DNA of 64,000 nt, taken from contig MEOH01000011.1 of assembly GCA_001769535.1 (NCBI GenBank), forward strand, positions 124,001-188,000, in the 5' to 3' direction. The translations under genes were made by a program, and so were the position numbers. Shown here one piece after another: positions 38,248 to 60,172 of the stretch (the first letter of the stretch is position 1; every line of letters begins with the position of its first letter). The DNA is from Bacteroidetes bacterium GWF2_38_335 (GTDB lineage: Bacteria > Bacteroidota > Bacteroidia > Bacteroidales > GWF2-38-335). The notes beneath the pieces are model-generated. The model did not search any database. It was not told the DNA's origin and saw only the letters and a list, made by a program, of their open reading frames with translations.

Positions 38248-38313
38248 CAGAAAAAAAAGAATGCTATATTAATTCCGAAACTGGTGAAGCTGATTAGGGA
38301 GTTTTTGGGGTAG
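38248..38313 (+). pseudogene. 3' fragment of a small HTH gene (copy of 60459-60646)
   Basis: In frame it reads QKKKNAILIPKLVKLIREFL then G-stop. This is nearly the same as the C-terminus of the small HTH protein at 60459-60646 (RKKRIRILIPKQVKLIREFL, G-stop). The last 30 nt are identical. The N-terminal HTH part is missing. Confidence 0.75.
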
Positions 38314-38314
38314 G

Positions 38315-38468
38315 TTATAAATAAATTCCAAATTCAAAATTTAAAGAAGGAGTATTTGTTTTTGAATAGTCTTTCTCAAGTGCATAAGTTAAACTTGTTT
38401 CAAAGGAAATATTACTATTAATAAAATAAGCATAACCAATTCCAGAGATTTTTTGTTATTGTTAACAA
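38315..38468 (-). pseudogene. 3' fragment of an outer-membrane beta-barrel gene
   Basis: On the reverse strand, after a stop, the frame reads QKISGIGYAYFINSNISF then ETSLTYALEKDYSK, ending NFEFGIYL-stop. This is a plausible last quarter of a barrel protein, similar in pattern to the end of the protein at 20000-20830. There is no start or signal peptide. It abuts the HTH fragment tail to tail, 1 nt between stop codons. Confidence 0.6.
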
Positions 38469-40032: not shown

Positions 40033-40758
40033 ATGAAAATGCCTGATATTATAGAAAGTAAGATACGACGCCTACCGGTTGGCTATGTTTTCACCTATGA
40101 GGATTTTGATATTCCGGTGGATAAGGTCGATGCCCTTACCAAAGCACTCAGTCGTATGGTACAGGATGGCAAAATTCGCAAGCTGTCACCGGGGCGTTTT
40201 TACAAACCCCGTTGTACAGATTTTGGCGAGTTAAAGCCTGAAGTTTACCAGGTGGTGAAAGACCTTTTGGAACAGAACGGTAATATTCTCGGTTACCTTA
40301 CTGGCTATTCTTCCTTCAATAAGCTTGGGCTTACAACACAAATCTCAAGCATCATTCAGATTGGTGCCAATGAACCTAAAAAAAGCATCACACGTGGCAT
40401 TTATAAAATCCGGTTTATTAAGCAGCCAAATACAATAACAAAAGAAAACATACCCTTGTTGCGCATTCTCGATGCTATCCGGAACATCAAAGAAATACCA
40501 GATACAACGGTGCAGGATTCATGCAAAATACTTATCAATATTGCAAAAAAAATCAACAATGATGACATAGAGATTATTGTACGGCTTGCAAAAAAATACA
40601 ACCCTGCCACCCGTGCTTTATCGGGTGCAATTATTGATTTGTGCTACGGCGGGAAGGTTGCAGAACCTTTGCTAAAATCATTAAACCCATCCTCAGAATA
40701 TGAGTTTGGAATATCAGACAACATATTGCCCAACAAACTTAAATGGAACATAAGATGA
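40033..40758 (+). CDS. abiEi: AbiEi/DUF6088-type antitoxin (AbiE system 1)
   Basis: The protein has 241 residues. It has an N-terminal winged HTH (IESKIRRLPVGYVFTYEDF, ALTKALSRMVQDGKIRKLSP, GRFYKPR) and the C-terminal antitoxin domain with GYLTGYSSFNKLGLTTQIS. This matches the DUF6088 group of AbiEi-like antitoxins of type IV toxin-antitoxin systems. Its stop overlaps the toxin start by 4 nt (ATGA), giving translational coupling. AbiEi antagonises the toxin and represses the operon. ATG 40033 is used; ATG 40039 would also fit. It is similar in plan to the protein at 42548 but clearly diverged, so this is an independent module rather than a recent duplicate. Confidence 0.85.
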   Translation: MKMPDIIESKIRRLPVGYVFTYEDFDIPVDKVDALTKALSRMVQDGKIRKLSPGRFYKPRCTDFGELKPEVYQVVKDLLEQNGNILGYLTGYSSFNKLGLTTQISSIIQIGANEPKKSITRGIYKIRFIKQPNTITKENIPLLRILDAIRNIKEIPDTTVQDSCKILINIAKKINNDDIEIIVRLAKKYNPATRALSGAIIDLCYGGKVAEPLLKSLNPSSEYEFGISDNILPNKLKWNIR

Positions 40759-41714
40759 ACCTGCATAATGATAAAAATTCGTTTTTTGCTGCTGTTCAGG
40801 CAACTTCCGATAAACTGGAAATATTACCTGTGTTTATCGAAAAGGATTACTGGATAACATTGGTTCTAAAACGGCTCTCTGAGAGTAAATTCAACGATGG
40901 GGTAGTGTTCAAGGGTGGAACATCTCTGTCAAAAGGGTACAAATTGATAGACCGTTTTTCTGAGGACATTGATATTGCTGTACTGAATGTTTCCGAATTG
41001 TCTGGCAATCAGGTAAAGAATCTTATTCGTGACGTTGTAAGGGATATATCTGTTGATCTTACAGAAATTCCTGACCATCCCGGAACAAGTAAGGGCTCAG
41101 GTTTTCGCAAATCATATTTCACTTATTCTAAAACTGGTGATTCTCGTTTCTATGAAGGTTTTTCAGACAAACTTATCATCGAAATAAATTCTTTTGCAAA
41201 TCCCTTTCCATATGAAAAAAGGGAAATAAACTGTCTGATAAGTACATCGCTTGCAATGAACAATCAAAATGATCTGATAAAAAAATATGAATTACTTCCT
41301 TTCAGGATTAATGTTCTGAATAAACAACAGACTATGATTGAAAAACTGGTTTCTTTGTTTCGTTCTTCTTTTGAAGAAAATCCGAATACAGGTGTATTAG
41401 CCAAGATTCGTCATTTTTACGATTTGTATTTTCTTTTAGCAGACAAGGATTGCAGGGTGTTTATTGATTCTTCTGATTTTGCAAAACAGTTCAGTGAAAT
41501 ATGGCTGCATGACCAGACTATTTTTGATGACCCCACCGGGTGGAAAGGTCAAACTGTTTCTCAATCACCGTTATTCAATGATCTTTTGGCAATATGGGAT
41601 TCTGTAAAATCGACGTATAGACGTGAATTATCTGGTTTTGTATTTAAACAAATACCTAATGAAGAATTGATTATTGATTCTATTTACTACATTATTAAAA
41701 AGTTACCAAAATAA
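40755..41714 (+). CDS. abiEii: AbiEii nucleotidyltransferase toxin (AbiE system 1)
   Basis: The protein has 319 residues from ATG 40755, chosen because it gives the typical 4-nt overlap with the antitoxin. The nucleotidyltransferase core is clear: KDYWITLVLKRL, GGTSLSKGYKL (G54-G55...K60), RFSEDIDIAV with metal-binding D71 and D73, and downstream MIEKLVSLFRSS and IRHFYDLYFLL typical of AbiEii/AbiGii. Such toxins transfer nucleotides (shown for relatives on tRNA or protein targets) and cause abortive infection on phage attack. All recognisable catalytic residues are present, so the toxin looks active. Confidence 0.9.
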   Translation: MNLHNDKNSFFAAVQATSDKLEILPVFIEKDYWITLVLKRLSESKFNDGVVFKGGTSLSKGYKLIDRFSEDIDIAVLNVSELSGNQVKNLIRDVVRDISVDLTEIPDHPGTSKGSGFRKSYFTYSKTGDSRFYEGFSDKLIIEINSFANPFPYEKREINCLISTSLAMNNQNDLIKKYELLPFRINVLNKQQTMIEKLVSLFRSSFEENPNTGVLAKIRHFYDLYFLLADKDCRVFIDSSDFAKQFSEIWLHDQTIFDDPTGWKGQTVSQSPLFNDLLAIWDSVKSTYRRELSGFVFKQIPNEELIIDSIYYIIKKLPK

Positions 41715-41944: not shown

Positions 41945-42403
41945 CCCTAACCGATTATATTATAATATTTTACAGCAATGCAAAAAATAGGCCTACCGAT
42001 TTGCACACCTGATTTTTGCAAAATTTTTATTTTATGTTAATGAACCTTTTACGTCGTTTTGCAACGTGTTGACAAATATATAAATAAAACTTTTTCCGAA
42101 CAAATAATTTTGGGTTCATTTTTTTGAAAAATAAGCGTCTCCCCTATTTTTGCGATTGTATTATGCAGATAATCTGTTAGTTATTTTTAGTATTAAAGTA
42201 TATGTGCTGGGGACGGTAAATTTTGGGCGTTTTTTTCAGCGAGGATTTATATCGAAAAAATAGATCATAAGATGTGATAATTTTTCAATTCATTTTGTGG
42301 ATATTTTAAGAAGTAAATTTAATCCATTAATAAACAAATATTTAAAGATTTAATTAGATTATTATATTGAAATACAATATGATGTGAGTTATTAATAAGT
42401 GAC

Positions 42404-42488
42404 GCAAATAAGTGTAATTCAATGTATTTTTGTAAATACCAAAAAATCATGGCAGCGCATTGACGTTAATGTGCTCGGAGATCATTAA
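42404..42488 (+). pseudogene. Promoter and N-terminal remnant of an RteC-like gene (copy of 44493-44610)
   Basis: 42404-42441 equals 44493-44530 at 36 of 38 bases, including -7 element TATTTTTG. 42450-42482 equals 44578-44610 at 29 of 33. It reads TKKSWQRIDVNVLGDH-stop, the start of the 44563 protein (TKKPWQRIDVNLLGD). The start codon and 39 bp are missing, apparently by deletion between two ACCA repeats. Homology stops at about 42482, where the AbiE-2 operator begins. Confidence 0.8.
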
Positions 42489-42543
42489 ATTGTCAAGTTT
42501 TTTGCTCCATAAACTTGACAATTAGAAAAAATAATTATCTTTG
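42488..42543 (+). promoter_or_regulatory. AbiE-2 operator and promoter
   Basis: A perfect 13-bp inverted repeat, AATTGTCAAGTTT (42488-42500) and its complement (42511-42523), with a 10-nt spacer, is followed by -7 element TATCTTTG (42536-42543). The right arm contains the -33 position. The ATG at 42548 is 4 nt after the -7 element, so the mRNA should be leaderless or nearly so. Confidence 0.7.
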
Positions 42544-42547
42544 CAAT

Positions 42548-43276
42548 ATGAATTTGGCTTCACAAATAAGAAATAGAATTAAACAATTACCCGAAGGCAA
42601 AACTTTTGGGTATGAAGATTTACGTATTGCAAAGGAAGAATACTCCACAGCCGCCAAGGCACTGGAACGCATGCAAAAAGAAGGTTTGATTAAGAAAGTT
42701 TCCAAGGGTGTGTTTTATAAACCTGAACAAACTGTATTTGGAGAGTTGAAACCAGATTATAGTGAATTACTTAGACCCTTTTTGTTTGAAAATGGTAAAC
42801 GCGTGGCGTACGAAACGGGCACATCCCTGTATAACCGTTTGGGTTTGACAACTCAAATGGCTTTTCGAATTAAAATTGCCAGCCGGGGCAAACGTATTTA
42901 TATTAATCGTGGATCTTTAAAAGCAGATGCCGTAAAAAGCTATGCCGAAGTAACCGAAAGTAATTATGAAATTTTAGGGTTGCTGGATGCTTTTAAAGAT
43001 ATCAAACGCATTCCGGATTGTACTTTGGTCCAGGCAGTCCGTAGGTTGAGTGCAATTTTAAAGAAGCTCGGCGAAAAGCAAATCGAATCATTGATTAAAT
43101 ATGCTTTGGTCTATCCGCCCAGAGTAAAAGCATTGGTTGGGGCAGTTTTGCAAAATAACGGCTATGAAGGAAAAGGATTGGAAAAATTGAAAAACAGTCT
43201 TAATCCATTAACCACTATAAAATTGGGAATAAAGGAGATAGATTTACTCACAAAAAATAATTGGTATATCGAATGA
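42548..43276 (+). CDS. abiEi: AbiEi/DUF6088-type antitoxin (AbiE system 2)
   Basis: The protein has 242 residues from ATG 42548. The N-terminal wHTH is IRNRIKQLPEGKTFGYEDLR, ALERMQKEGLIKKVSKGVFY. The C-terminal domain has ETGTSLYNRLGLTTQMAFRI and LVYPPRVKALVGAVL. The plan is identical to the first antitoxin, including the spacing of motifs, but the sequences differ widely. The stop overlaps the toxin start by 4 nt. An upstream in-frame TTG at 42515 lies inside the operator and is rejected. The close -7 element implies a leaderless transcript. Confidence 0.85.
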   Translation: MNLASQIRNRIKQLPEGKTFGYEDLRIAKEEYSTAAKALERMQKEGLIKKVSKGVFYKPEQTVFGELKPDYSELLRPFLFENGKRVAYETGTSLYNRLGLTTQMAFRIKIASRGKRIYINRGSLKADAVKSYAEVTESNYEILGLLDAFKDIKRIPDCTLVQAVRRLSAILKKLGEKQIESLIKYALVYPPRVKALVGAVLQNNGYEGKGLEKLKNSLNPLTTIKLGIKEIDLLTKNNWYIE

Positions 43277-44250
43277 GATTGCACGAAAACAAAAACTTAT
43301 ACAAGGATGCCATTAGGTTTACCGCACAACAAATGAATCTGAAACCAGAATATGTTGAAAAAGACTATTGGATTACATTTGCTTTGTATACTGTTTACCA
43401 TCATGAAATTGGAAAAGACATGGTATTTAAAGGGGGAACGGCACTATCCAAATGTTACAAAATGATAGACCGTTTTTCTGAAGATATTGACTTGGTAGTA
43501 ATAAGACGAGAAGGAGAGTCAAACAATAAACTGACTACAAAAATCAGAAAAATTAGCGATATTGTTAATGCCGTCTTGCCGGAAGTAATTATTGAAGGAA
43601 TTACACATAAAATGGGAATGAACCGTAAAACAGCACACTCATACAACAAAGAATTTTCTGGTGATTACGGACAAGTAAGAAATGTTATTGTGGTAGAAGC
43701 AACCTGGTTGGGTTATTACGAACCTTTTACCACAAAAAGCATTGTTTCCTTTGTTGGTAGTATGATGCTTAATAACGGACAAACAGAAATAGCCCAGGAA
43801 TACAATTTAATTCCTTATGACCTGCAGGTATTAGAGCCCATAAGAACTATTTGTGAAAAGATAATGAGTTTGGTTCGTTTTTCATATAGCGAAAATCCTT
43901 TGGAAGATCTGAAAAATAAAATCAGACACACCTATGACTTAAATCAGTTATTGAGGCAGAAAGAATTTTCCGTTTTTATTGATTCTCCGGTTTTTGATGA
44001 AATGTTGTTGAAGGTGGCAAAAGATGATGTGGTAAGTTTTAAAAGTAATAATGAATGGCTAAATTATCATCCAGGTGAATCTTTGTTTTTTAAAGATCTT
44101 GATAATATTTGGAATGAATTGAAAGTTGTTTATAACGGAGAATTTAAAAATTTGGTTTACGGAGAATTACCAAATGAAGAAGAAGTCTTTAAGACTATGA
44201 TCAGAATCAGGGAAAGGTTAAAGCCGGTTATTTGGAATATAAAAATTTAA
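43273..44250 (+). CDS. abiEii: AbiEii nucleotidyltransferase toxin (AbiE system 2)
   Basis: The protein has 325 residues from ATG 43273 (ATGA overlap with the antitoxin). Core motifs are KDYWITFALYTV, VFKGGTALSKCYKMIDRFSE, then DIDLVV with D71 and D73 in the same numbering as toxin 1. IRTICEKIMSLVRFS and IRHTYDLNQLL mark the helical C-terminal part. The catalytic residues are intact. The operon lies between a broken and an intact copy of the start of the RteC-like gene, so it was probably acquired as a cargo module. Two non-identical AbiE systems in one island can avoid cross-neutralisation. Confidence 0.9.
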   Translation: MRLHENKNLYKDAIRFTAQQMNLKPEYVEKDYWITFALYTVYHHEIGKDMVFKGGTALSKCYKMIDRFSEDIDLVVIRREGESNNKLTTKIRKISDIVNAVLPEVIIEGITHKMGMNRKTAHSYNKEFSGDYGQVRNVIVVEATWLGYYEPFTTKSIVSFVGSMMLNNGQTEIAQEYNLIPYDLQVLEPIRTICEKIMSLVRFSYSENPLEDLKNKIRHTYDLNQLLRQKEFSVFIDSPVFDEMLLKVAKDDVVSFKSNNEWLNYHPGESLFFKDLDNIWNELKVVYNGEFKNLVYGELPNEEEVFKTMIRIRERLKPVIWNIKI

Positions 44251-44492
44251 ACTTAGAATTGAGATTTAGAAATAATTTATAAAAATCATACAATTCAAAA
44301 TTTCGGCAAAAAAAAGAATTGTTTGCCATTGTTTTGTGTATTGGCTTTTATTCCGGTAATAAATCATAATCACCTTGATTAAAGCAACTTGTTCGCTGTT
44401 AATAAAATTTTCTTTTTAAAAATCAGATCATTAGAAAAACAGATATATTATTAAATTGATTTACAGTAGTGTATGATTTATTAACAAACTAA

Positions 44493-44610
44493 GCAAATAA
44501 GTGCAATTCGATGTATTTTTGTAAATACCATTAAATATTTTTTACAGAAATAACATTGTACGATGACCAAAAAACCCTGGCAACGCATTGACGTTAATTT
44601 GCTTGGCGAT
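44493..44610 (+). repeat. Intact copy of the promoter/N-terminus repeat, with -7 element
   Basis: This is the partner of 42404-42488. It includes the -7 element TATTTTTG (44514-44521) and the first 16 codons of the RteC-like gene. The two copies bracket the AbiE-2 operon in direct orientation, about 2.1 kb apart. The 44.25-44.49 kb gap before it is AT-rich and holds no gene. Confidence 0.75.
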
Positions 44611-45537
44611 ATTACTAAAAAGGAATATTGTGAAGATGCAAACAGCGGGAATCCTAGGAACCTGCTGGAAATTATTCAGAGGATACATTCTATTGAAATT
44701 ATTATTTCCGGATTGGACTTAAACAAAAGAAAAGAATTCGATAAGATAAATATCAAAGAGTTTGGATTCAGAGAAAGAAATGATGTAAAATTTGACATGA
44801 TTCCAGATGTTTTTGCATGTGAATCTAAAATTACTATGATTCCAAAAACTGTTTATTACTTGGAGGATAAAATCATTCTACCGGATCCATTTAGCAAAAA
44901 AGGTGAAATGTGGTTGTCTGTTATGGCAGATGCATTTGAAAGACTTAAAGTCAAAGCCGAAAACATTTTGCATTCTGCCGATAATTTTAAGAATATTGAA
45001 TTGTATGCGGTAAAAAATATTCAGATGGCTCGCCGCATGTGTTATGAATCAAAAGTAAAAATGGAGAAGATACAGAAACACGGGTCAAAGGAAGCAATGT
45101 TTATTGTTTATATTCAAAATTTGTTTATTATCAATGTGTTGATGTATATGCAGAATATGTTTAGTAATTTTTATTCTGAGGAAGTTCACTCTAAATATGA
45201 TTTAAAATTAGAACTATTTGAGACAATGAATATGGGAAAGATTATGGAACCTGAAGTAGATTATATTAAAAAAACAGACAATACTGAAAAGGAAATGAAG
45301 TTTAAATGGAACGGACAGATAAATACTCTGGTTACATATTTATATGATCTTATGAATATGAAAATTGATAATGAATTTCTTCTTGAAACAACAAATAATG
45401 ATGTTGTGCATCTTCTTACAAATTTCTTTGTTGACAAAAATGGAAATCCTATGAAAGAATCAACCGTTTCCACATGTCTGAAGGACGGTAAGGTTGAAAA
45501 AAGAGTAAAAGGAAAAAAGAGAATTGAGATAAAATAA
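44563..45537 (+). CDS. Possible RteC-like mobile-element regulator
   Basis: The protein has 324 residues, cytoplasmic, with a mostly helical N-terminal two-thirds. The C-terminal 80 residues (KFKWNGQINTLVTYLYDLM, VVHLLTNFFVDKNGNPMKES, STCLKDGKVEKRVKGKKRIE) recall the C-terminal domain of RteC, which controls excision of conjugative transposons: a W-x-G start, a helical pair, a F-x-x-K/D-x-G loop, and a basic tail. The resemblance is by eye and partial. Position beside an excisionase-type HTH and a VapE primase supports an element-regulatory role. A truncated paralogue lies at 42404-42488. Its own -7 promoter is at 44514-44521. Confidence 0.5.
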   Translation: MTKKPWQRIDVNLLGDITKKEYCEDANSGNPRNLLEIIQRIHSIEIIISGLDLNKRKEFDKINIKEFGFRERNDVKFDMIPDVFACESKITMIPKTVYYLEDKIILPDPFSKKGEMWLSVMADAFERLKVKAENILHSADNFKNIELYAVKNIQMARRMCYESKVKMEKIQKHGSKEAMFIVYIQNLFIINVLMYMQNMFSNFYSEEVHSKYDLKLELFETMNMGKIMEPEVDYIKKTDNTEKEMKFKWNGQINTLVTYLYDLMNMKIDNEFLLETTNNDVVHLLTNFFVDKNGNPMKESTVSTCLKDGKVEKRVKGKKRIEIK

Positions 45538-45567
45538 ATTCCGGGATCAATAAAGTTCTTGCTGACA

Positions 45568-46146
45568 CTACATATAAGCAGCATATGAAATGATTACTTC
45601 GCAGTTAGGAAAAAGTGATTCAATTTTTTCAACTTCTTCATCAGGAAGACTGCCTTTGATTTTTAAAAGTTTAAGCTTGGGAAAACCTGAAATAATTTTT
45701 ATCATTTCATCATCTATGACCGGAAGGGAAATTTTCAAAACTTCAAGGTTGTCGGGATAAATCTTTTTAAGTTCGGTTTTTAAATCAAAATCAATTAATC
45801 CCATAAGATCAAGCTCTTTTAGCTTTTTGAAGTTTATAAACCAGTCCGGAAGTGATTTTATTGAAGATGCCTCAAAACCTACAATGCAGGGACGATGACC
45901 AGATGGCATTGCCCACATGTTTATTCTTGGTCTTAATGATATGTATTCAAGATTGTAACACCTTTTAATACGTGTGGGGACTTTTGTTTTTTTACATACA
46001 ATCTCTGATAATTCAACTCTTATAACACGGTGTTTTCGGAATGAATCTCTGGCTTCCTTATAACTATAAATATAAGTGGAATCAAATTGAGAAAATGAAT
46101 TCAAAATAGTAAATGAAAGAAATGCCATTAAAAAAATAATTCTCAT
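45568..46146 (-). CDS. Secreted LRR-like protein, unknown function
   Basis: The protein has 192 residues with a signal peptide (IIFLMAFLSFTILNSFSQ). It contains three or four irregular leucine-rich units: FKKLKELDLMGLIDFDLKTE, NLEVLKISLPVIDDEMIK, PKLKLLKIKGSLPDEEVEKI. It is convergent with the RteC-like gene, 30 nt between stops, and transcribed away from the HTH/VapE genes. A secreted LRR protein is unexpected in a replication module; it may be cargo. The region upstream of its start carries the GGGGACTTTT repeats. Confidence 0.7.
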   Translation of the reverse strand: MRIIFLMAFLSFTILNSFSQFDSTYIYSYKEARDSFRKHRVIRVELSEIVCKKTKVPTRIKRCYNLEYISLRPRINMWAMPSGHRPCIVGFEASSIKSLPDWFINFKKLKELDLMGLIDFDLKTELKKIYPDNLEVLKISLPVIDDEMIKIISGFPKLKLLKIKGSLPDEEVEKIESLFPNCEVIISYAAYM

Positions 46147-46200
46147 TGTGTTTCTTGCTTTCTAATAAGACAAATCGAGTATCGAAATGGTTGTATGGTC

Positions 46201-46386
46201 GGGGACTTTTTAAAATTTTCCGGGGACTTTTTTCTTGTTAATAAATTATTAGTTTGTAAATCAATTGAATATAAAAAAAACAGTCCCCAAAACACCTCGG
46301 GGACTTTTTTAGACCAAAAAAAGTTTGATTTCTGAAATACAATCAATTAAAAATATTTTTTATTTTTTTTAGAAAAGGGACTTTTT
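46201..46386 (+). repeat. GGGGACTTTT direct repeats upstream of HTH/VapE genes
   Basis: GGGGACTTTT occurs at 46201-46210, 46222-46231 and 46299-46308. A weaker AGGGACTTTT lies at 46377-46386, and an inverted GTCCCC at 46283-46288. The spacing of the first two is 21 bp, two helical turns. The 46.15-46.50 kb gap also has a perfect 16-bp palindrome (TTTTGTTGCAACAAAA, 46420-46435). These look like binding sites for a replication or regulatory protein of the element. Confidence 0.6.
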
Positions 46387-46496
46387 AGACTTTTTCACTT
46401 CCATAATATTGCAAAAGGTTTTTGTTGCAACAAAACGATATTTGGTTCTGGTGAAGGCCAAGCCGGACCATAGTATTAATTCAAAAACTTAATAAA

Positions 46497-46793
46497 ATGG
46501 ATGTAATAACAATTGAAACTGTTGCCTTTACACAGATTATGGCTAAACTTCAAAGTCTTGAAGAAAAATTTATAGAACTAAAAGAACAAGCATCATGTCC
46601 TTTAAATGAAAAATGGCTTGATAACCAGGATGTAATGCTATTGTTGAAATTGAGCAAAAGAACTCTTCAGAGTTATAGAGATGAAAAGAAAATTCCTTTT
46701 TCTCAAATAGGTGCAAAAATATACTATAGAGCATCTGATTTTGACAAGCTTCTGAAAAAGAACTATCAAAAAACAATTACAAATGGTTTATAA
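46497..46793 (+). CDS. Excisionase-type helix-turn-helix protein
   Basis: The protein has 98 residues. After an N-terminal helical part (TIETVAFTQIMAKLQSLEEK), residues about 40-95 form the HTH_17/MerR-like winged helix typical of Bacteroidota mobile elements: WLDNQDVMLLLKLSKRTLQS, YRDEKKIPFSQIGAKIYYRA, DFDKLLKKNY. Proteins of this type accompany integrases and VirE/VapE primases in conjugative and satellite elements and regulate excision or replication. Its stop is 1 nt before the preferred VapE start, so the two are one transcription unit. Confidence 0.85.
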   Translation: MDVITIETVAFTQIMAKLQSLEEKFIELKEQASCPLNEKWLDNQDVMLLLKLSKRTLQSYRDEKKIPFSQIGAKIYYRASDFDKLLKKNYQKTITNGL

Positions 46794-46794
46794 A

Positions 46795-48860
46795 ATGACC
46801 GAACTAACAATCTTCCAAAACTTCACAAAAGTTGTAGCCAACCTAAGCATTGAAAAAATTGTTGCTGTTATAAAAAGCAATAAATACAAAGCTCAGGTTG
46901 CAAAGCTCCAACTTTTGTTGAAGCAAGGAAAAGATAAGGAGTACGCCCAAAGCAAAAAGTCGCTGCCGGCGTTTACTCCTTCGGGAAAATTCAAGGATGG
47001 AAGAAAAATGGAATTCCTCCAGGAATATTCCCGCATTATCATTCTCGACATTGATAAGGTTGAAAATATTACCGAAATCAGAAAAAAAGCAGAAAACTGT
47101 GTGTTTACTCATGTTTGCTTTATCAGCCCCAGCGGAAACGGCTTAAAAATCCTTGTAAAAACAGATAATTCTGTATCAAAACACAGGGAAGCTTTTTTGG
47201 AGGTCCAGGAATACTACGAAAAACTCTTGAACATTAAAATTGACCCATCAGGCAAGGACGTTAGCCGTCTTTGCTTTTTTTCATGGGATCCGGAAATTTA
47301 TGTGAACAATGAATCTGAAATTTTTAAAACAAAAAAAGAAATGAGTATAAAAAGTGATATTGAAAATCTGATTGAACAGATTGACGGAAAAAAGGTGGAT
47401 ATAACCGGTGATTACGATGAATGGATAAAAATTGGCTTTGCCCTGGAATCGGAGTATGGCGAATTTGGCCGACCATATTTTCACGACATCAGCCGGCACA
47501 ACCATACCTATAATGCCGAAGCATGCAATGAACAGTACACAAAATGTCTGAGGAATAACCGTTTCGGGATAACTATTAGAACATTGTTTCATATTGCAAA
47601 GAAGTATGGAGTGGTTGTTAAATCCATTAATAAACGAGTGGAAAATAATGAAAAGGAGGAGGATAATTTTCCGGTAAAGGAATCTAAAACAGTTAAAATT
47701 AAGGAGAGGAAAAAGATCACTTCAAACAAATTCAATATAGCTGAAGAGTATTTAAATCAAAGGTATGATATCAGGTATAATTCTGTAAACAATAAATTTG
47801 AGTATAAGGAAAAGGATGCGAAAGAATATGAGGATCTGAATGAAAACAATCTGTACGTTAAGCTTCAGAAAGATAATATCAATTTGAGTTTGAATAATCT
47901 TGTGGCTTTGCTTAAATCGGATTTTGTGAACAAGCATGATCCTTTCCTTGAGTACTTTAAAAGTTTGCCTCAATGGGATGAAGCAACAGACTATGTTGAG
48001 CATCTTTGCAGTTTTGTAAAGGCAAAGGAACAGGAAAGGTTCAACCATCATTTTTTAAAGTGGTTGGTTAGAACTGTAAAAACAGCAACAAATCCGGATT
48101 CCTATAACAAACAGGCATTTGTTTTAGTAAGCAATCGCCAGAATTCCGGTAAATCTACATTTTGTCGTTTTCTTTGTCCGAAGGCATTATCCGGTTACAT
48201 TGCTGAAAACATCGGAACAGATAAGGACAGCCATGTGGCTATTACAGAAAACTTTTTGATTAACCTGGATGAACTTTCTCAGGCCGAAAAAGCAGAGATT
48301 AATGCTTTTAAATCAATGTTTTCAAAAGACAGAGTAAAAGCCCGGCTTACCTATGACAAAAGAGCTTCAATACATGTAAGGCGTGCAAGTTTTCTTGGTT
48401 CCACTGACAAATGGGAATTCCTTACCGATGAAAACGGAAGTGTGCGCTGGTTGTGTATGGAAATAGAGTATATTGATTGGAATTACAGCAAGGAAGTGGA
48501 CATGGATAATGTGTATTCAATGGTATGGCATCTGGCAAAGGACAAAGAGTTTGTTTCAGAGCTTACCAGAGATGAAATTGAAGAGAATGACAGGATAAAC
48601 AAGAAATTTCAGATTTCATCTCCTGAAGCAGATTTGGTAGAACGTTTTTTCGAGCCGGCTGGGGAGGACGAGGACGGTTTTTTTACAACGCCACCGAAAT
48701 CTTAGAGCATATTATGACAAAAACAGCCATAAAACTGGCTCCGGAAAAGGTGGGGAAAGCACTGAGGTTTCTTAATTATGAGCGCACAGCAAAAAGGATT
48801 AATGGTAAGTTAAAGCATGGCTATTATCTTAAAAATGTAAATGAAATTGCAAATAAATAG
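46795..48860 (+). CDS. VirE-N/VapE primase-helicase, frameshifted at a T7 run
   Basis: Two domains are seen. The N-terminal BT4734/VirE_N primase-like domain has FTPSGKFKDGRK, IILDIDKV, HVCFISPSGNGLKILVKT, DVSRLCFFSWDP. The C-terminal VapE (SF3-like P-loop ATPase) has NRQNSGKSTFCRFLC (about 448-462), FLINLDELSQ, RASFLGSTDKWEFL. The zero frame stops at 48705. The family C-terminus continues in the -1 frame from 48684 to 48860 (NATEILEHIMTKTAIKLAP, KVGKALRFLNYERTAKR). The switch lies on GGT-TTT-TTT, a U-UUU-UUU slippery site (48678-48684). It could be a real mutation, a sequencing error, or programmed slippage. ATG 46795 is preferred over 46783, which overlaps the HTH gene. Confidence 0.8.
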
Positions 48861-48867
48861 GGTATGT

Positions 48868-49076
48868 ACTTATAACCTTATATCAGTGGTTTGTAATTAT
48901 TTGAAATACAGAAAAATAAAGGTTGATATAAGTATAATATTTCTGCTTATATCAACCTTATAACTTATATCGATATAAGTTATAAGGTTGAAACAGGTCA
49001 AAAAAATAAAAAAATCTCTACTTATAACATTTGAATATCAATAACTTAAAAAGGGGTGATATAAGTGTATAAGTGG
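48868..49076. other. Putative replication origin: iterons and 40-bp palindrome
   Basis: ACTTATA-type units recur: 48868-48885 (ACTTATAACCTTATATCA), a 14-bp inverted pair at 48919-48932 and 48946-48959, a perfect 40-bp palindrome at 48952-48991 containing CTTATATC/GATATAAG, another unit at 49020-49029, and a double unit at 49057-49076 (TGATATAAGTGTATAAGTGG). A very A+T-rich stretch follows (49080-49140). The position directly after a primase-helicase gene matches origins of phage-satellite elements. Origin function is inferred. No gene is seen in 48.86-49.47 kb. Confidence 0.55.
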
Positions 49077-49398
49077 AAAATGCAAAAAAAACTTTTTTTT
49101 ATTATAAACACAAAAAATTAAAGTTGAGTAAAAATTATTGCCCTTTAAGAGATTTACAAATTGTCAGACAGTGTCTGATAAATTAAGAATAAAAACACAA
49201 ATTACTGAATTTAAAATGTTTAATTGAAAAATACTAATGAGTAAATTGCATTAGAAAATAAAATATAAGATATGGCATTAATAAGTAACTTCTTTAGGTA
49301 TGAGGTAAAAAGCAAGGAATTTATGATTATAAAAGAATAAAGGAATTACAGAAGTTTTTATCTTAATAAAGTAACATTAATTGAATGTGGTATTTTTA

Positions 49399-49429
49399 TT
49401 TGACAATATGGTTATAAATTGTAATTTTG
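49399..49429 (+). promoter_or_regulatory. Promoter of the type I restriction-modification operon
   Basis: -33 TTTG (49399-49402), 19-nt spacer, -7 TAATTTTG (49422-49429): an ideal Bacteroidota promoter. The start codon at 49473 leaves a leader of roughly 37 nt. Confidence 0.75.
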
Positions 49430-49472
49430 GAACTACGGATTTTGTCAAGATAAAATAGTCCGATTTTCTATA

Positions 49473-52271
49473 ATGTCAAAAACTGAAACTGAAACAAGGA
49501 AAGAGATAATTGACAACCGACTTAAGCAAGCGGGATGGAATATCAACGACCGTACTCAAGTGATGGAAGAATTTGATATAATTATTGACAAAAATTTAGT
49601 CCAAGAAGCACCAACTCCATACGCCGGACATCAATACAGCGACTATGTTTTATTGGGAAAGGATGGCAAACCACTTGCAGTTGTGGAAGCTAAGAAAACT
49701 TCAGTTAATGCAGCACTCGGACGGGAACAAGCCAAACAATATTGCTACAATATACAATCTACTCAAAGTGTAGAGTTGCCTTTTTGCTTTTATACTAATG
49801 GTCACGATATTTATTTTTGGGATTTAGACAATTATCCACCTAAAAAAGTATACGGTTTCCCGACCCGTGACGACCTTGAACGTTATTCCTACATTCGCAA
49901 AGCAAGAAAGCAATTAGCAGGTGAACTGATTAATACTAAAATTGCAGGACGCAATTATCAGATTGCTTCTATTCGTGCCGTAATGGAAGCTATTGAAAAG
50001 CGGAAGCGCAAATTTTTGTTAGTCATGGCGACTGGCACTGGAAAAACAAGAACTTGTATTGCTTTGGTTGATGCATTAATGAGAGCTGGTTGGGCGGAAA
50101 GGGTTTTGTTTTTAGTGGACAGAATTGCGCTTCGTGATCAAACATTGGAAGCATTCAAGGAACATTTACCCAATGAACCCCGCTGGCCAAAACAAAGTGA
50201 AAAAGAAATTGCAACAGACAGAAGGATTTATGTTTCGACTTATCCGACTATGTTGAACGTAATTAGACATGAAGAAAAATCGTTAAGCCCACATTTCTTT
50301 GACTTGATTGTGGTAGACGAAAGCCACCGTAGTATTTACAACACCTATCAGGAAATACTTGATTTTTTCAATACCATTACTCTTGGTTTAACAGCCACTC
50401 CAACGGATGTAATTGACCACAATACGTTTCAATTATTTGAATGCGAAGATGGCGTGCCGACTTTTGCATATTCCTATGACGAAGCAGTAAATCACATTCC
50501 GCCATTTCTGAGCAATTTTCAGGTAATGAAAATTAAAACCAAGTTTCAGGATGAAGGAATAAACAAGAGGACAATTTCATTGGAAGACCAACAAAAATTG
50601 ATGTTGGAGGGTAAAGAAATTGAAGAAATCAATTACGAAGGTACAGATATTGAAAAGAAAGTAATCAACCGGGGGACAAATGCCTTGATAGTCCGTGAGT
50701 TCATGGAAGAAAGCATCAAAGATGCCAACGGAGTATTACCAGGTAAAACAATTTTCTTTTGCATTTCAAAAGCACATGCAAGACGTGTTGAAGAAATATT
50801 CGATTCACTTTATCCCGAATATAAAGGCGAATTAGCCAAAGTATTGGTAAGCGAAGATCCAAGAGTTTACGGCAAAGGTGGTTTGCTTGACCAGTTTGTT
50901 CACAATGATATGCCACGAATTGCAATTAGTGTTGACATGCTCGACACTGGCATTGATGTTCGTGAGTTGGTTAATTTAGTTTTTGCAAAACCTGTTTACA
51001 GTTATACTAAGTTTTGGCAGATGATAGGCAGAGGAACTCGTTTACTCGAACCTGAAAAAATTAAACCATGGTGCACTCAAAAAGATAATTTCTTGGTTCT
51101 TGATTGTTGGGACAATTTTGAATATTTTAAACTCAACCCAAGGGGTAAAGAGATAAAAGGACAGATTCCTTTACCCGTTCGATTATTTGGTGTGCGATTA
51201 GATAAAATTGAAGAAGCCCAAACACAAAGCAAATTTGAGATTGTAAACAAAGAAATTCAGAAAATCAGAAAGCAGGTTGAGTTGCTTCCGAAAAACTCCG
51301 TGGTGATTATGGAAGCTCGAAACGAGTTACAGCGATTGGAAGATGAAAACTTTTGGAACAACCTGACTTCCGGCAAAATGGAATTTTTGGAAGCCGTTGT
51401 AAAACCATTGCTACGCACGGTTTCGGATGTTGATTTCAAAGCCATGCGATTTGAAAAAGACATTGTTGAAGTTTCGTTGGCTCATTTATCTGGTGAAGCA
51501 GAAAAATTTGAAACGCTAAAAGAAAGCATCATTGAAGAAATTGGCGAACTGCCTTTGAGTATTAATATTGTGGCACGAGAGCAGGAATTAATTCGTCAAG
51601 CACAAAGCAATCATTATTGGTCAACCATCAATGAAGATAAGTTTGAAGAACTGATTCTAAAACTTTCACCTTTGATGAAATTTCGTGAAGCTGTTATTCC
51701 TTTAGCACCTGCAAAATTCAACCTAAAAGATATTGTTGCTGAAAAAGAATTTATTGAGTTTGGGCCACAACACGAAGCATTGAGCGTAGCTAAATACCGA
51801 GAACTGGTTGAAAAGAAAATCAATGAATTGGTTACAGGCAGTCCGATTCTACAAAAACTAAAACAAGGGCAAGAAATTACATCAGATGAAGCTGAACAAT
51901 TAGCCGAGGAACTACACAACGAACATCCGCATATTACCATTGATTTACTTCGCAAGGTTTACAACCACCGCAAAGCTGCATTAGTGCAATTTATCAAACA
52001 TATTTTGGGTATTGAGCAGCTGGAAACTTTTGCAGAAACTGTTTCTAAAGCATTTGATGATTTTATTTCAAAACATAGTTACCTTACCAGCAGACAACTT
52101 CAATTTCTTGACTTGCTAAAGAATTTTGTATTGGAAAAAGGCGATGTAAGTAAGCGCAATCTGATTGAATCTCCCTTTACAATGATTCATCCCGAAGGCA
52201 TTAGAGGAATATTTAATCAAAAAGAGATTGACGAAATTTTAAGTTTAACGGAAAAAGTATTAGCAGCATAA
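49473..52271 (+). CDS. hsdR: Type I restriction enzyme, R subunit
   Basis: The protein has 932 residues. The N-terminal PD-(D/E)xK nuclease is SDYVLLGKDGKPLAVVEAKK (D57, E72, K74). The SF2 translocase has Walker A MATGTGKT (185-192), DESH box at 282-285, motif III GLTATP, and motif V-VI ISVDMLDTGIDV / QMIGRGTRL. The C-terminal part (EcoEI R_C-like) is helical. It cleaves DNA lacking the modification set by HsdM/HsdS. All catalytic motifs are intact, so restriction should be active. It has its own strong promoter and is first in the operon hsdR - Bro-N gene - hsdM - hsdS - DUF4917. Confidence 0.96.
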   Translation: MSKTETETRKEIIDNRLKQAGWNINDRTQVMEEFDIIIDKNLVQEAPTPYAGHQYSDYVLLGKDGKPLAVVEAKKTSVNAALGREQAKQYCYNIQSTQSVELPFCFYTNGHDIYFWDLDNYPPKKVYGFPTRDDLERYSYIRKARKQLAGELINTKIAGRNYQIASIRAVMEAIEKRKRKFLLVMATGTGKTRTCIALVDALMRAGWAERVLFLVDRIALRDQTLEAFKEHLPNEPRWPKQSEKEIATDRRIYVSTYPTMLNVIRHEEKSLSPHFFDLIVVDESHRSIYNTYQEILDFFNTITLGLTATPTDVIDHNTFQLFECEDGVPTFAYSYDEAVNHIPPFLSNFQVMKIKTKFQDEGINKRTISLEDQQKLMLEGKEIEEINYEGTDIEKKVINRGTNALIVREFMEESIKDANGVLPGKTIFFCISKAHARRVEEIFDSLYPEYKGELAKVLVSEDPRVYGKGGLLDQFVHNDMPRIAISVDMLDTGIDVRELVNLVFAKPVYSYTKFWQMIGRGTRLLEPEKIKPWCTQKDNFLVLDCWDNFEYFKLNPRGKEIKGQIPLPVRLFGVRLDKIEEAQTQSKFEIVNKEIQKIRKQVELLPKNSVVIMEARNELQRLEDENFWNNLTSGKMEFLEAVVKPLLRTVSDVDFKAMRFEKDIVEVSLAHLSGEAEKFETLKESIIEEIGELPLSINIVAREQELIRQAQSNHYWSTINEDKFEELILKLSPLMKFREAVIPLAPAKFNLKDIVAEKEFIEFGPQHEALSVAKYRELVEKKINELVTGSPILQKLKQGQEITSDEAEQLAEELHNEHPHITIDLLRKVYNHRKAALVQFIKHILGIEQLETFAETVSKAFDDFISKHSYLTSRQLQFLDLLKNFVLEKGDVSKRNLIESPFTMIHPEGIRGIFNQKEIDEILSLTEKVLAA

Positions 52272-52276
52272 AAATG

Positions 52277-52301
52277 AAACCGTGACAATTCGTCACGGTT
52301 T
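52277..52301 (+). promoter_or_regulatory. Hairpin between hsdR and the Bro-N gene
   Basis: A perfect 10-bp stem AAACCGTGAC / GTCACGGTTT with a 5-nt loop, right after the hsdR stop. No T-run follows, so it is unlikely to end transcription fully. It may protect the hsdR message end or tune downstream expression. Confidence 0.5.
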
Positions 52302-52327
52302 GAATAAACTGAAAACGAACAGAGTAT

Positions 52328-53185
52328 ATGGAAAAGAAAAATGAGATAAAAATATTTGAAGACAGGAAAGTAAGGACTTTATGGGATAATGAACATGAAA
52401 AGTGGTATTTCTCGATTATTGATGTAATTGAAGTGTTAACTGACAGTCCAAGACCACGAAAATATTGGAATGCCTTAAAAACAAAACTTAAAGCTGAAGG
52501 AAGTGAGTTGTCCCAAAATTTGGGACAACTGAAAATGCAATCGGCTGACGGGAAGTTTTACCTTACCGATGTAGCTGATACCGAACAACTTTTCCGATTA
52601 ATACAATCAATCCCATCACCCAAGGCCGAACCCTTTAAGCAATGGCTGGCACAGGTAGCAGCAGAACGATTGGACGAAATGCAAGACCCCGAACTCAGTA
52701 TTGACAGGGCACTAGAACAATACCTAAAACTTGGCTATTCAGAAAATTGGATTAACCAACGCCTCAAAAGCATTGAGATAAGAAAAGAACTAACAGACGA
52801 ATGGAAAAAAAGGGGATTGAAAGAAGGTGTTCAGTTTGCTACGCTTACCGATATTATTACCAAAACCTGGAGCGATAGAACCACCAAAGAATACAAAATT
52901 CTGAAAGGTTTGAAAAAGGAAAACCTACGGGATAACATGACCAATACAGAACTCATCTTAAACATGCTTGCCGAGGCATCCACAAAAGACATATCAGCCG
53001 CAACCAATCCGAAAGATTTTGAAGAAAGTAAGAAAGTTGCAAAACAGGGTGGCAATGTAGCAAAGGTAGCACGTAAAGAACTGGAAGCTAAAACCGGTAA
53101 AAAGGTAGTTACTGCTCTAAATGCCAAAACCGCATTGCAATTGAATGAAGGTGGCAAGAAAAAAACGAAAAGCAAAAAGAAGTAG
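52328..53185 (+). CDS. Bro-N domain (antirepressor-type) protein in the hsd operon
   Basis: The protein has 285 residues. An N-terminal Bro-N domain (FEDRKVRTLWDNEHEKWYFS, IIDVIEVLTDSPRPRKYWNA, LTDVADTEQLFRLIQSIPSP, KAEPFKQWLAQVAAERL) is followed by a DinD-like helical part (LGYSENWINQRLKSIEIRKE, GLKEGVQFATLTDIITKTW) and a Lys-rich tail. Bro-N proteins of this type are common passengers in type I loci and may regulate them or respond to DNA damage. It ends exactly where hsdM begins (0-nt gap). A perfect 25-nt dyad lies inside the gene at 52506-52530. Confidence 0.85.
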   Translation: MEKKNEIKIFEDRKVRTLWDNEHEKWYFSIIDVIEVLTDSPRPRKYWNALKTKLKAEGSELSQNLGQLKMQSADGKFYLTDVADTEQLFRLIQSIPSPKAEPFKQWLAQVAAERLDEMQDPELSIDRALEQYLKLGYSENWINQRLKSIEIRKELTDEWKKRGLKEGVQFATLTDIITKTWSDRTTKEYKILKGLKKENLRDNMTNTELILNMLAEASTKDISAATNPKDFEESKKVAKQGGNVAKVARKELEAKTGKKVVTALNAKTALQLNEGGKKKTKSKKK

Positions 53186-54754
53186 ATGTTACAAAATAAT
53201 GCACAATTAAAATCGCTTATTGAAAAGCTTTGGCAGAACTTTTGGGAAGGTGGCATTGCCAACCCTTTAACTGCCATTGAGCAAATTACCTATCTTATTT
53301 TCATGAAACGTTTGGACGATTTAGAAGCCAAACGAGAGCGTGATGCCGAGTTTACAGGAGAAAAATACGTTTCGCGATTTGCAGGGAAATTCAACGTTCC
53401 GGGCAGTACCGAAAGCATCGATAAAAATGAATTACGTTGGAGCGTATTTAAACACAAGCCGGCAGATGAAATGCTATTCCATGTGCAAATGAAAGTGTTC
53501 CCATTTCTTAAGGATTTGAACGGTGAAACTTCACCTTTCACCAAACACATGGCAAATGCTGTGTTTATAATGCCCAAAGCAAGTTTGCTGGTTTCTGCCA
53601 TCAACATTGTAGAAGATATTTTCAAGGAGATTGAAAAAGATGCCACCGAAGGCGGACATGCATTTCAGGACATTCAGGGAGATGTTTATGAAATGCTTTT
53701 GAGTGAGATTGCTACAGCAGGTAAAAATGGACAGTTCCGCACACCTCGGCACATTATTAAACTGATGGCTGAGCTAGTTGCTCCCCAATTGGGACAACGC
53801 ATTGCTGACCCTGCCTGCGGAACAGGCGGTTTCTTGCTTGGCGCTTATCAATACATTCTCACCGATTTAGTGAGGAAAAAAGACCCTGCAAAACTGAGCA
53901 AAGACGAAGACGGATTTGAACGTGCCGCTATTAGTGCGGTTTTAACTCAAAAAGTAAAAACCATTCTCGACCAAAGTTTTGTGGGCTATGATATTGATAC
54001 CACCATGGTACGTTTGGGTTTAATGAATCTTATGATGCACGGCATTGACGAGCCCAAAATTGACTATAAAGACACCCTGAGCAAAAGCTACAACGAAGAC
54101 AGCCAATTCGACATTATTATGGCAAATCCGCCATTTACTGGGAATATTGACAAAGGCGACATTAATGAAGGGTTAAAACTACCCACCACCAAAACGGAAC
54201 TACTCTTTGTAGAACGTATTTTTAACATGCTCAAAATGGGTGGAACGGCTGCCGTTATTGTACCAAGTGGTGTAATACAAAACAGCGGTAAAGCATTTGA
54301 AGCCTTACGGAAAATGATAATTGAAAAAGCCGAACTAAAAGCCGTAGTAGCTGTTCCAAGTGGAGCCTTTAAACCTTATGCAGGCGTAAGCACAGCCATA
54401 TTGATTTTTACCAAAGGCGGAGAAACCAATAATGTATGGTTTTACGACATGCAATCAGACGGCTATAGCTTAGACGACAAACGAAACAAAATAGCTGAAA
54501 GTGATTTGCCCGACATTGTGCAACGCTACAAAAGTAGAGATGCCAAAAAAGATAGCGACCGCAAGTTGAAATATTTTATGGTTCGGAAAAAGGAGATTGT
54601 AGAAAACAATTACGACCTCAATCTGAGCACCTACAAAGAGGAAGTGTATGAAGAAGTGAAATATGAGAAGCCCAATTTGATTTTCAAGAAACTTGAAACC
54701 TTAGAAGAAAGTATTCAAAGTGGATTAAAAGAACTAAAGCCGCTTATTCAATGA
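53186..54754 (+). CDS. hsdM: Type I DNA adenine methyltransferase, M subunit
   Basis: The protein has 522 residues. An N-terminal helical HsdM_N (LKSLIEKLWQNFWEGG, YLIFMKRLDDLEAKRE) precedes the methylase core. AdoMet motif I is DPACGTGG (208-215), the catalytic motif IV is NPPF (314-317), and FRTPRHIIKLM precedes the core as in HsdM proteins. It methylates adenine at the site read by HsdS and forms the M2S enzyme, adding R for restriction. It abuts the Bro-N gene and overlaps hsdS by 4 nt (ATGA). All motifs are intact. Confidence 0.96.
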   Translation: MLQNNAQLKSLIEKLWQNFWEGGIANPLTAIEQITYLIFMKRLDDLEAKRERDAEFTGEKYVSRFAGKFNVPGSTESIDKNELRWSVFKHKPADEMLFHVQMKVFPFLKDLNGETSPFTKHMANAVFIMPKASLLVSAINIVEDIFKEIEKDATEGGHAFQDIQGDVYEMLLSEIATAGKNGQFRTPRHIIKLMAELVAPQLGQRIADPACGTGGFLLGAYQYILTDLVRKKDPAKLSKDEDGFERAAISAVLTQKVKTILDQSFVGYDIDTTMVRLGLMNLMMHGIDEPKIDYKDTLSKSYNEDSQFDIIMANPPFTGNIDKGDINEGLKLPTTKTELLFVERIFNMLKMGGTAAVIVPSGVIQNSGKAFEALRKMIIEKAELKAVVAVPSGAFKPYAGVSTAILIFTKGGETNNVWFYDMQSDGYSLDDKRNKIAESDLPDIVQRYKSRDAKKDSDRKLKYFMVRKKEIVENNYDLNLSTYKEEVYEEVKYEKPNLIFKKLETLEESIQSGLKELKPLIQ

Positions 54755-55929
54755 CATTACTGAAAGACATAGCTCAAATAGAGAAGGGAAGAAAATACAA
54801 CTTACTTGAAGAAAATCAAGAAGGTGCAATTCGTGTGTTTCAGGCAAATGATTTCAGAAATGAAAACAAACCGCTTTACACTTTAGATGATGATGGAGTT
54901 TTAGCACAAGAAGATGATATTATGATGGTTTGGGACGGTTCTGTTGGGCAAATGGGTTTTGGTAGAAGCGGTTATGTGGGAAGCACGATGGTAAAATTGA
55001 AAGTGAAAAACAAAAAACAATTTTCGCCATTTTTTATTTACAGATTTCTTCAGACCAAATCGGAATATCTAAAACGTAAAGCTACAGGGGCAACCATCAT
55101 GCACATAAACAGGAAATCATTGGAACAACTTATAATTCCTGAATTAGATTTATCAGACCAACTCCACATCGCCAATCTCCTCAGCAAAGCCGAAAACCTG
55201 ATAAGCCAACGCAAAGAAAGCATTCGTCTGTTGGATGATTTTCTGAAAAGCACGTTTTTGGAGATGTTTGGAGATATACAAAAAATGAAGGAAATGAAGT
55301 CTGAAAATTTTTCAGATCACATTGAGTTCTTAACAAGTGGTTCAAGAGGTTGGGCAAAATACTATTCAAATACTGGTGCAAAATTTTTAAGAATACAGAA
55401 TGTTTGGAAAGGGGCATTGAGGATTGATGAACTGCAATATGTAAATGCTCCAAAAACACAAGAAGCAATCAGAACAAAGGTGCAAGAAGGAGACCTGCTT
55501 ATTACAATTACAGCGGATTTGGGTAGAACAGCAGTAGTTCCAAAAAATTTTGGAGAAGCATACATCAATCAACATATTGCTCTTGTTAGGCTAAAGAAAT
55601 CTGTTAACCCGACCTATGCTGCATTCTATTTTTTCATGCCTTTTGGATATTCAGCAATTCAAAAGAAAAATAAATCAGCGGTCAAATCAGGCTTAACTTT
55701 TAATGATATTAAAACATTACCAATAATAGTTCCTCCTATCAAACTCCAAATCCAATTTGCCCAAATCGTAGAAAAAACAGAAGCCCTCAAAATACAATAT
55801 AAACAAAGCTTGCAGGAGTTGGAGAATTTGTATGGGAGTTTGAGTCAAAGGGCGTTTAGGGGGGAGTTAAGCATAAAAGATGAAAGTTTGTTAATGGCTG
55901 CGGAGCCGGAAACTAAATACGGTGAATAA
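54751..55929 (+). CDS. hsdS: Type I specificity subunit S
   Basis: The protein has 392 residues. It has two target-recognition domains: TRD1 (1-145, with MMVWDGSVGQMGFGRSGYVG and IMHINRKSLEQLIIPE) and TRD2 (about 190-345, with LITITADLGRTAVV and VKSGLTFNDIKTLPIIVPP). They are separated by the conserved helix (HIANLLSKAENLISQRKESI) with a matching helix at the C-terminus (FAQIVEKTEALKIQYKQSLQ). It sets the bipartite DNA target, which cannot be read from sequence. No second hsdS or invertase is present, so phase-variable shuffling is not indicated. Confidence 0.94.
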   Translation: MTLLKDIAQIEKGRKYNLLEENQEGAIRVFQANDFRNENKPLYTLDDDGVLAQEDDIMMVWDGSVGQMGFGRSGYVGSTMVKLKVKNKKQFSPFFIYRFLQTKSEYLKRKATGATIMHINRKSLEQLIIPELDLSDQLHIANLLSKAENLISQRKESIRLLDDFLKSTFLEMFGDIQKMKEMKSENFSDHIEFLTSGSRGWAKYYSNTGAKFLRIQNVWKGALRIDELQYVNAPKTQEAIRTKVQEGDLLITITADLGRTAVVPKNFGEAYINQHIALVRLKKSVNPTYAAFYFFMPFGYSAIQKKNKSAVKSGLTFNDIKTLPIIVPPIKLQIQFAQIVEKTEALKIQYKQSLQELENLYGSLSQRAFRGELSIKDESLLMAAEPETKYGE

Positions 55930-55931
55930 AA

Positions 55932-56987: not shown

Positions 56988-57112
56988 GCAATGATTGTAA
57001 TATGAAAAATCTTTAAATAGGAGTCGACTTTAAAAGATAAAAGTTTTCAATGGCAGTGGATCCTGAAATGAAATATGGAAAAATAAATAATAAAAAAAGT
57101 AATTATGAATTT

Positions 57113-57469: not shown

Positions 57470-57486
57470 TTCTTTTTGAAAATTAA

Positions 57487-59037: not shown

Positions 59038-59069
59038 GCAATCCACATTTGCAAGCCCCCACGAAACAA

Positions 59070-59122
59070 AGCTCAAAACAAATTTTGCGACAAGTGAGGG
59101 CATAGCTAAACTTGTTTGAGCT
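59070..59122. repeat. Imperfect inverted repeat downstream of the RT gene
   Basis: AGCTCAAAACAA (59070-59081) pairs with TTGTTTGAGCT (59112-59122), one bulged A. It lies 33 nt after the RT stop. It could be a 3' processing or terminator-like hairpin, without a T-run. Confidence 0.5.
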
Positions 59123-59133
59123 ACACACATTAG

Positions 59134-59164
59134 TTGGAATTAATAAAAATACAATTTACCTTTG
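59134..59164 (+). promoter_or_regulatory. Promoter of the small lipoprotein gene
   Basis: -33 TTG (59134-59136) and -7 TACCTTTG (59157-59164) with a spacing within the Bacteroidota range. The start codon lies 43 nt downstream. Confidence 0.55.
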
Positions 59165-60159: not shown

Positions 60160-60172
60160 AATATTCTTTTTT

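Follow-up and report, generated by a model that had tools for sequence, protein, structure and literature searches.

A primase-helicase gene flanked by two repeat arrays in a Bacteroidota genome: a probable P4/SaPI-type replication module in a provirus-like or satellite-like element

The window analysed here is a stretch of 64,000 nucleotides (positions 124,001 to 188,000 of contig MEOH01000011.1, hereafter C11) from Bacteroidetes bacterium GWF2_38_335. It contains a locus in which three open reading frames, all in one direction, encode the protein C3, a small HTH_17 protein and a VapE-type primase-helicase, with two repeat arrays, U and D, flanking the HTH-helicase pair (Table 1). Within 3 kb, the GGGGACTTTT sites of array U are followed by the HTH_17 gene, by the BT4734-N, PriCT_2 and VapE domains, by ACTTATA iterons with a 40-bp palindrome and by an A/T tract. 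A first-pass annotation had read this set as a self-replicating satellite or mobile island lacking its integrase in the window. Its excisionase-type HTH gene is confirmed by the HTH_17 match and also matches the excisionase/regulator family phrog_66 of PHROGs (1.1e-5), while the palindrome is indeed perfect. The AT-rich tract is present, but just past the end of the span then delimited, because array D extends to 49074. Both of the repeats it listed are real; the GGGGACTTTT and ACTTATA sites, however, belong to two different arrays. A search of Rfam with 45500-49500 gave no match. The LRR-like open reading frame between C3 and array U has no counterpart at that position in the relatives examined. 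A diverged copy of the start of C3 and its upstream region (42327-42482, compared with 44416-44610) is located just before the second AbiE pair, looking as if this pair had been inserted beside a duplicated C3 start.

Table 1. Features of the locus, in window coordinates.
Feature	Coordinates	Strand	Remarks
3' fragment of small HTH gene	38251-38315	+	Partner copy of the 65-bp repeat
Two tandem AbiEi/AbiEii pairs	40033-41714 and 42515-44250		Precede C3
C3 open reading frame	44563-45537	+	324 aa; no named family; genetic link with array U; in the place of RteC of other elements
LRR-like open reading frame	45568-46146	-	Between C3 and array U; LRR_14 match below cut-off
Array U	46201-46394		GGGGAC at 46201(+), 46222(+), 46283(-) and 46299(+); degenerate copy at 46377
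HTH_17 gene	46497-46793	+	Small DNA-binding protein, excisionase-like; Pfam 7.1e-12
PrimPol (BT4734-N) + PriCT_2 + VapE SF3 helicase	46783-48705	+	640 aa up to the frame change
T7 run	48678-48684	+	Frame-change site; winged-helix C-terminal domain continues in a different frame as far as its stop codon (48858-48860)
Array D	48868-49074		11 CTTATA sites, orientation string >><>>><<><<
Perfect 40-bp palindrome	48952-48991		Head-to-head centre of array D
A/T tract	49075-49106		Adjoins the last reverse dimer of array D
Defence cargo slot	49107-59655		Limits set by the alignment of L078 with L092
Type I RM with BRO-N gene	49473-55929		In defence slot
SIR2-like PDC-S21	55932-56987		In defence slot
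DRT2 reverse transcriptase	57487-59037		In defence slot; followed by a small open reading frame
RNase_H_2 gene	59656-60180	-	Pfam 4.4e-9; right limit of the defence slot
Small HTH gene	60458-60646	+	DUF4248-like, match below cut-off
65-bp repeat	60584-60648	+	3' end of the small HTH gene; partner at 38251-38315, 85% identical, with identical core

The VapE-type gene contains the BT4734-like_N, PriCT_2 and VapE-like domains (Pfam) that had earlier been called a VirE/VapE primase-helicase, but its open reading frame is not intact. At the T7 run the frame shifts and the final 55 or so codons, which are in frame in the relatives compared, continue in another frame up to 48860. As the out-of-frame domain contains no stop codon and keeps conserved residues, the shift is either recent or an assembly error, the latter being possible because the assembly is a draft. 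Barring such an error, the window copy of the module may be disabled, since its VapE changes frame. In the predicted structure of an intact relative, L075 (mean pLDDT 84.2), the part that is out of frame in the window forms a winged helix (residues 611-673). The best fold match of this model is the SaPI protein PriRep1 (PDB entry 7pds), with a Z-score of 23.5 and an r.m.s.d. of 4.9 over 369 aligned residues, followed by the C-terminal region of the NrS-1 protein (Z 15.5) and the SaPI5 primase-helicase (Z 13.4); a profile of 20 VapE relatives also matches 7pds (4.5e-17). The model and profile support the view that the VapE-type protein is a replicative primase-helicase. In the Labilibaculum/Marinifilum relatives L099, L101, L102, L104 and L105, VapE is split into three open reading frames at the same places, with array D retained.

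The frame change also fits a possible, though doubtful, reading in which the window holds a decayed remnant inside a chromosomal defence island, its parts being relics with no present function. The LRR-like open reading frame between C3 and array U, the absence of an integrase from the contig and the number of exact U sites (four in the window; the 11 relatives that have such sites contain 7-9) point the same way. Decay sits less well with a displaced domain that has gained no stop and keeps conserved residues, and with an array D whose 11 sites are all present and whose palindrome is perfect. Such a remnant would be compatible with a working module in the relatives.

Array D is located 3' of the VapE gene and is made up of 11 copies of CTTATA. 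The longer word ACTTATA, which the first-pass annotation had named as the iteron, is present 20 times in the window, where a mean of 9.04 is expected and none of 100 shuffles reaches 20; seven of the copies lie in array D. The repeat coverage 3' of the window VapE is above that of all 100 shuffles (z 5.5). A VapE match is found in 101 of the 393 genomes of the order. A scan of the genome contigs yielded 79 loci, of which 61, with a match reaching about residue 620, were used and 18 dropped; two more had too little sequence past the stop, leaving 59 for the test of array D. A significant array (one reached by at most four of 100 shuffles) follows VapE in 37 of these 59 loci, which are not phylogenetically independent. 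Iterons are present at homologous loci, then, and the pairing of primase-helicase and iteron array noted earlier is both real and conserved among the relatives. In a sliding scan over whole loci, the best-scoring 300-bp repeat segment falls at the 3' end of VapE in 17 of the 59 and ahead of the HTH gene in another 9, with 3.2 expected for both places together.

Array D accompanies VapE whatever gene stands upstream. In six of the closest relatives (L073, L074, L075, L082, L083 and L090) no significant array directly follows VapE, and relatives without array D have what, by eye, is a terminator-like hairpin there. With the window VapE protein alone as query no relative was found in viral contigs, while the VapE alignment found 29; an array follows the stop of 13 of 16 distant VapE genes on IMG/VR contigs, several of these contigs being near-duplicates. 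The VapE locus of a Bacteroides plasmid has no significant array after the stop. A constant box after array D was sought and is present in only 9 of 36 cases.

Array U is located between C3 and the HTH gene. As the first-pass annotation had pointed out, GGGGACTTTT is repeated: four exact copies are present in the window (45976, 46201, 46222 and 46299), compared to a mean of 0.16 expected, and none of 100 shuffles reaches four. An inverted core is located at 46283, and the copy at 45976 lies inside the reverse-strand LRR-like open reading frame, outside the array. The first two sites of the array are spaced 21 bp, and direct U sites are generally about 21 bp apart; the words used among the relatives are GGGGAC, GAAGAC or GGGAAC. 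In the window, the array is reached by none of 200 shuffles when the LRR-like open reading frame is left out and by 28 of 200 when it is included. Among loci that are not phylogenetically independent, array U is significant in 14 of the 16 with C3 and in 2 of the 29 others (Fisher test, 7.6e-8), the two C3 loci without it being the window, counted with the LRR-like open reading frame, and L094. No significant upstream array was found in L082.

C3 has tblastn matches in L035, L039 and L040, and 15 C3 sequences were aligned. Its model is helical (pLDDT 82.5), and a fold search gave only middling helical matches; no match was found above cut-off in Pfam or NCBIfam, nor in PHROGs or in phages. Although C3 occupies the same place as RteC, it is not called RteC here, because comparison of the two profiles gave a probability of 0.1.

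The words of array D are specific to each element (CTTATA, TTACAA, TACTAC and CTTACC), while the order and orientation of the sites are conserved. A direct pair with 8-bp spacing follows the stop, and is itself followed by a single inverted site; then comes a direct triple, head to head with an inverted pair (the palindrome, in the window), a direct site and an inverted pair. The complete 11-site string is common to the window (CTTATA), L078 (TTACAA) and L114 (TACTAC). In the set of arrays reached by at most one of 100 shuffles, plus the window, 27 of 30 start with a forward site and finish with a reverse site. The grammar was compared for 25 arrays that have six or more exact sites, against a null in which spacings and orientations were shuffled: in 251 pairs with unlike words, 0.576 of the sites are in register as against 0.412 (s.d. 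0.006), a value that none of 200 nulls reaches, and in 43 different-word pairs among 11 U arrays the figures are 0.524 and 0.382 (none of 300 nulls); as the arrays are related by descent, what both comparisons show is that a layout persists when the word is replaced; they do not tell how often such a replacement took place. Across 34 loci, the D word is correlated with the C-terminal domain (0.32) and with the helicase (0.36). A partial Mantel test gave r 0.09 (p 0.061) for the C-terminal domain given the helicase and r 0.21 (p 0.005) for the helicase given the C-terminal domain, which favours the helicase; the winged helix does not stand out as the reader of array D.

The arrays could also be transcriptional operators or attenuators. 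Array U would then control the HTH-helicase operon, bound by C3 or by the HTH protein, array D would control or end transcription, and replication would start elsewhere or not at all. Array U occupies precisely the intergenic stretch in front of the operon and goes together with C3, its inverted copies resemble a terminator (46305-46282), and the hairpin seen where array D is missing suits the same idea. It would however be unusual for an operator to have 11 sites spread across 207 bp in a dyad-like order downstream of the last gene, the sites occur in both orientations, and such arrays follow VapE even in viral contigs; we consider this explanation unlikely.

Beyond the A/T tract, the window contains the defence slot. 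In relatives, the slot holds type I or type III RM, DUF1016/PDC-S02, AbiE or helicase-methylase genes, and all of ten slot proteins picked from six elements match PADLOC models at 1e-10 or better. The loci L078 and L092, on two contigs from the same bin, are 84% identical as far as some 230 bp beyond the VapE stop and 94% identical from the RNase-H gene onward; between the aligned parts, one contains AbiE genes and the other a DUF1016 gene. Because the two differ just there, the region between array D and the RNase_H_2 gene is regarded as an exchangeable slot.

The RNase_H_2 gene is also found downstream in L078, L081, L082, L083, L087 and L092, and together with the small DUF4248-like HTH gene it follows the slot in seven loci, the window included, and in further contigs. 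At 60733-62619 and 62680-63966 (to C11:188542), two adjacent paralogous genes encode secreted proteins with T9SS-type C-terminal ends. To the right of the window, at C11:188842-199500 (4842-15500 of L058), a block of about 18 genes is located. Their order is conserved: membrane proteins, a transglutaminase-like protein, a 213-residue protein, a holin-like protein, a peptidoglycan-binding protein, a glucosaminidase and RadC. Nine contigs (the window's own and those of L073, L074, L075, L076, L078, L082, L083 and L092) have the block at 2.4-19.5 kb downstream of VapE; it is absent within 9.3 kb in L081, and the contig of L087 ends too early. It is not obligatory, as genome G090, with several C3-type copies, has no match to the 213-residue protein. 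In L224 and L228, the block is near open reading frames that resemble integrases by their start. The 213-residue protein, a candidate capsid protein, is encoded in 17 of the 393 genomes; it has no match in Pfam, the PDB, the viral contigs or phages, and its 14 homologues gave only two stray, weak PHROG matches.

Salisaeta icosahedral phage 1 is tailless and bears a membrane. The profile of the transglutaminase-like protein matches its gp34 (2e-6 by tblastn and 7.9e-22 by hmmsearch against 22 phage proteins), which is annotated as a structural protein (record JN880423); the other block profiles have no match to this phage. The transglutaminase-like protein has no match in the viral contigs, and a distant homologue, used as query, has none in phages. 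Judging from these sequences, the block may be called virion-like, not proven to encode a virion. Tentatively, the elements could be a lineage of temperate tailless Bacteroidota viruses, kin to Salisaeta icosahedral phage 1 through the transglutaminase-like protein, with a primase-SF3 helicase acting on two arrays of drifting words and conserved grammar, no integrase of their own and an exchangeable defence slot between the origin and the virion genes.

That the integrase simply lies beyond the edge of the window is not supported: no tyrosine integrase is present on the 204-kb contig C11. The genome has 14 Phage_integrase matches elsewhere, and no serine recombinase was found in it. Where enough sequence is available, a same-strand tyrosine integrase is located upstream in 2 of 15 C3-type loci, 3 of 4 RteC-type loci and 20 of 33 others. 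Since many relatives carry such an integrase, the module belongs to mobile elements, as the first-pass annotation had held. The satellite island it proposed is only one of several readings, because in close relatives the module precedes the defence slot and the virion-like block. A free-standing satellite island, with its integrase lost or elsewhere, would be in keeping with the integrase upstream of 23 of the 37 related modules outside the C3 clade, with defence cargo typical of satellites and with a 65-bp repeat that brackets 38251-60648. In the C3 clade, however, lacking an integrase is the rule (13 of 15), and the same RNase-H, HTH and virion-like block, which a satellite would not carry, follows module and slot in nine contigs. 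We regard a free-standing satellite as quite improbable.

The 65-bp direct repeat (85% identity) has other copies at C11:36103 and 38548. Its left copy is possibly an integration scar or an attachment site. The repeat may be the attachment site of the element; comparable 3' fragments are present at other places on the contig and in genome G395, but not around the other elements. In G395 (L179, C43:50568-56803), three 3' fragments come after an intact small HTH gene, at intervals of 1.7-2.1 kb that each contain one or two genes, like stepwise insertions. Outer direct repeats were sought around module and block in six contigs, two of them with little flank, and none of note was found except in G394 C140. 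There, a duplicated region (3958-5720 and 46203-47998) with ArdC-like open reading frames brackets the VapE module and block of L188, L198 and L199.

Taken together, we propose that the locus is a P4/SaPI-type replication module with two arrays, contained in a provirus-like or satellite-like element, and put the probability of this at roughly two in three. A provirus-like or satellite-like element is what the module most likely serves, because in the clade of the window it stands beside the defence slot and the virion-like block. From the anatomy of the locus and the fold of the protein, a mechanism can be suggested. The C-terminal winged helix of VapE, intact in relatives, or another protein of the element would bind the D sites at their 8-bp spacing, and the head-to-head centre of the array, here the palindrome, would nucleate assembly. 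The A/T tract beside array D would melt, the SF3 ring would be loaded and the primase domain would prime, as happens when P4 and SaPI replicate. Together with C3, array U would be a second cis element: a second origin or replication enhancer, or else the operator of the HTH-helicase operon. Drift of the word would let each element recognise its own arrays.

If this is correct, P4/SaPI-like replicons form a large family in the Bacteroidota, one that keeps its origin geometry fixed and lets the recognised word vary. Such a family would be a natural experiment on joint specificity change of initiators and origins, and would also supply origins that are compatible with one another. Anti-phage systems could predictably be sought in the slot beside the array, and the block farther on may represent virion genes missed by virus catalogues.

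Several known systems can be compared. In titles and abstract openings, which cover the literature in part, we found no description of this module; PMC12324425 and PMC5894146 describe other elements. Salisaeta icosahedral phage 1 is a free phage of 43.8 kb, and gp34 is its sole likeness to the block. In the DUF4248-BT4734 module of Bacteroides, seen in L239 (which has no significant array), a DUF4248 gene directly precedes a BT4734/BF3469 gene; in the window, HTH_17 precedes the BT4734 gene and the DUF4248-like gene is 11.6 kb away, so it is not of this type. The PLE satellite of Vibrio, as outlined in PMC7145576, encodes its own initiator, RepA, and has a repeat-bearing noncoding origin; unlike the VapE module, that initiator is a RepA_N protein without primase or helicase. 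P2-like phages and P4-like satellites, according to the abstract opening of PMC9122126, contain defence hotspots with variable anti-phage genes in a fixed slot. Here the element is a different one and the slot lies between an iteron array and the RNase-H gene.

The closest likenesses are to SaPI and P4, whose initiators, according to PMC7145576, combine both activities, P4 fusing helicase and primase. The SF3 helicase and C-terminal domain of VapE are like those of the SaPI replicon (PriRep1 and SaPI5 primase-helicase; PDB entries 7pds, 7om0 and 7ola) by profile and by fold. Unlike SaPI, the module has a BT4734-type PrimPol, a C3 gene, a second array U and a conserved 11-site grammar, and most of the C3 clade lacks an integrase. 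SaPIs are integrated elements with an initiator tied to nearby repeats. In the P4 alpha protein, primase, SF3 helicase and origin-binding domain form one chain, and ori and crr are two separate cis regions with short iterons in both orientations. Like P4, the module has primase and SF3 helicase in one chain and two separate cis regions, with short iterons in both orientations; unlike P4, it has Bacteroidota hosts, two arrays of different words per element and cargo beside an array. The integrase of its own that a PICI or satellite would have is not found on C11, while the parts of a P4/SaPI-type module are: a primase with an SF3 helicase, the winged helix being taken from the L075 model, and an iteron array beside the initiator gene.
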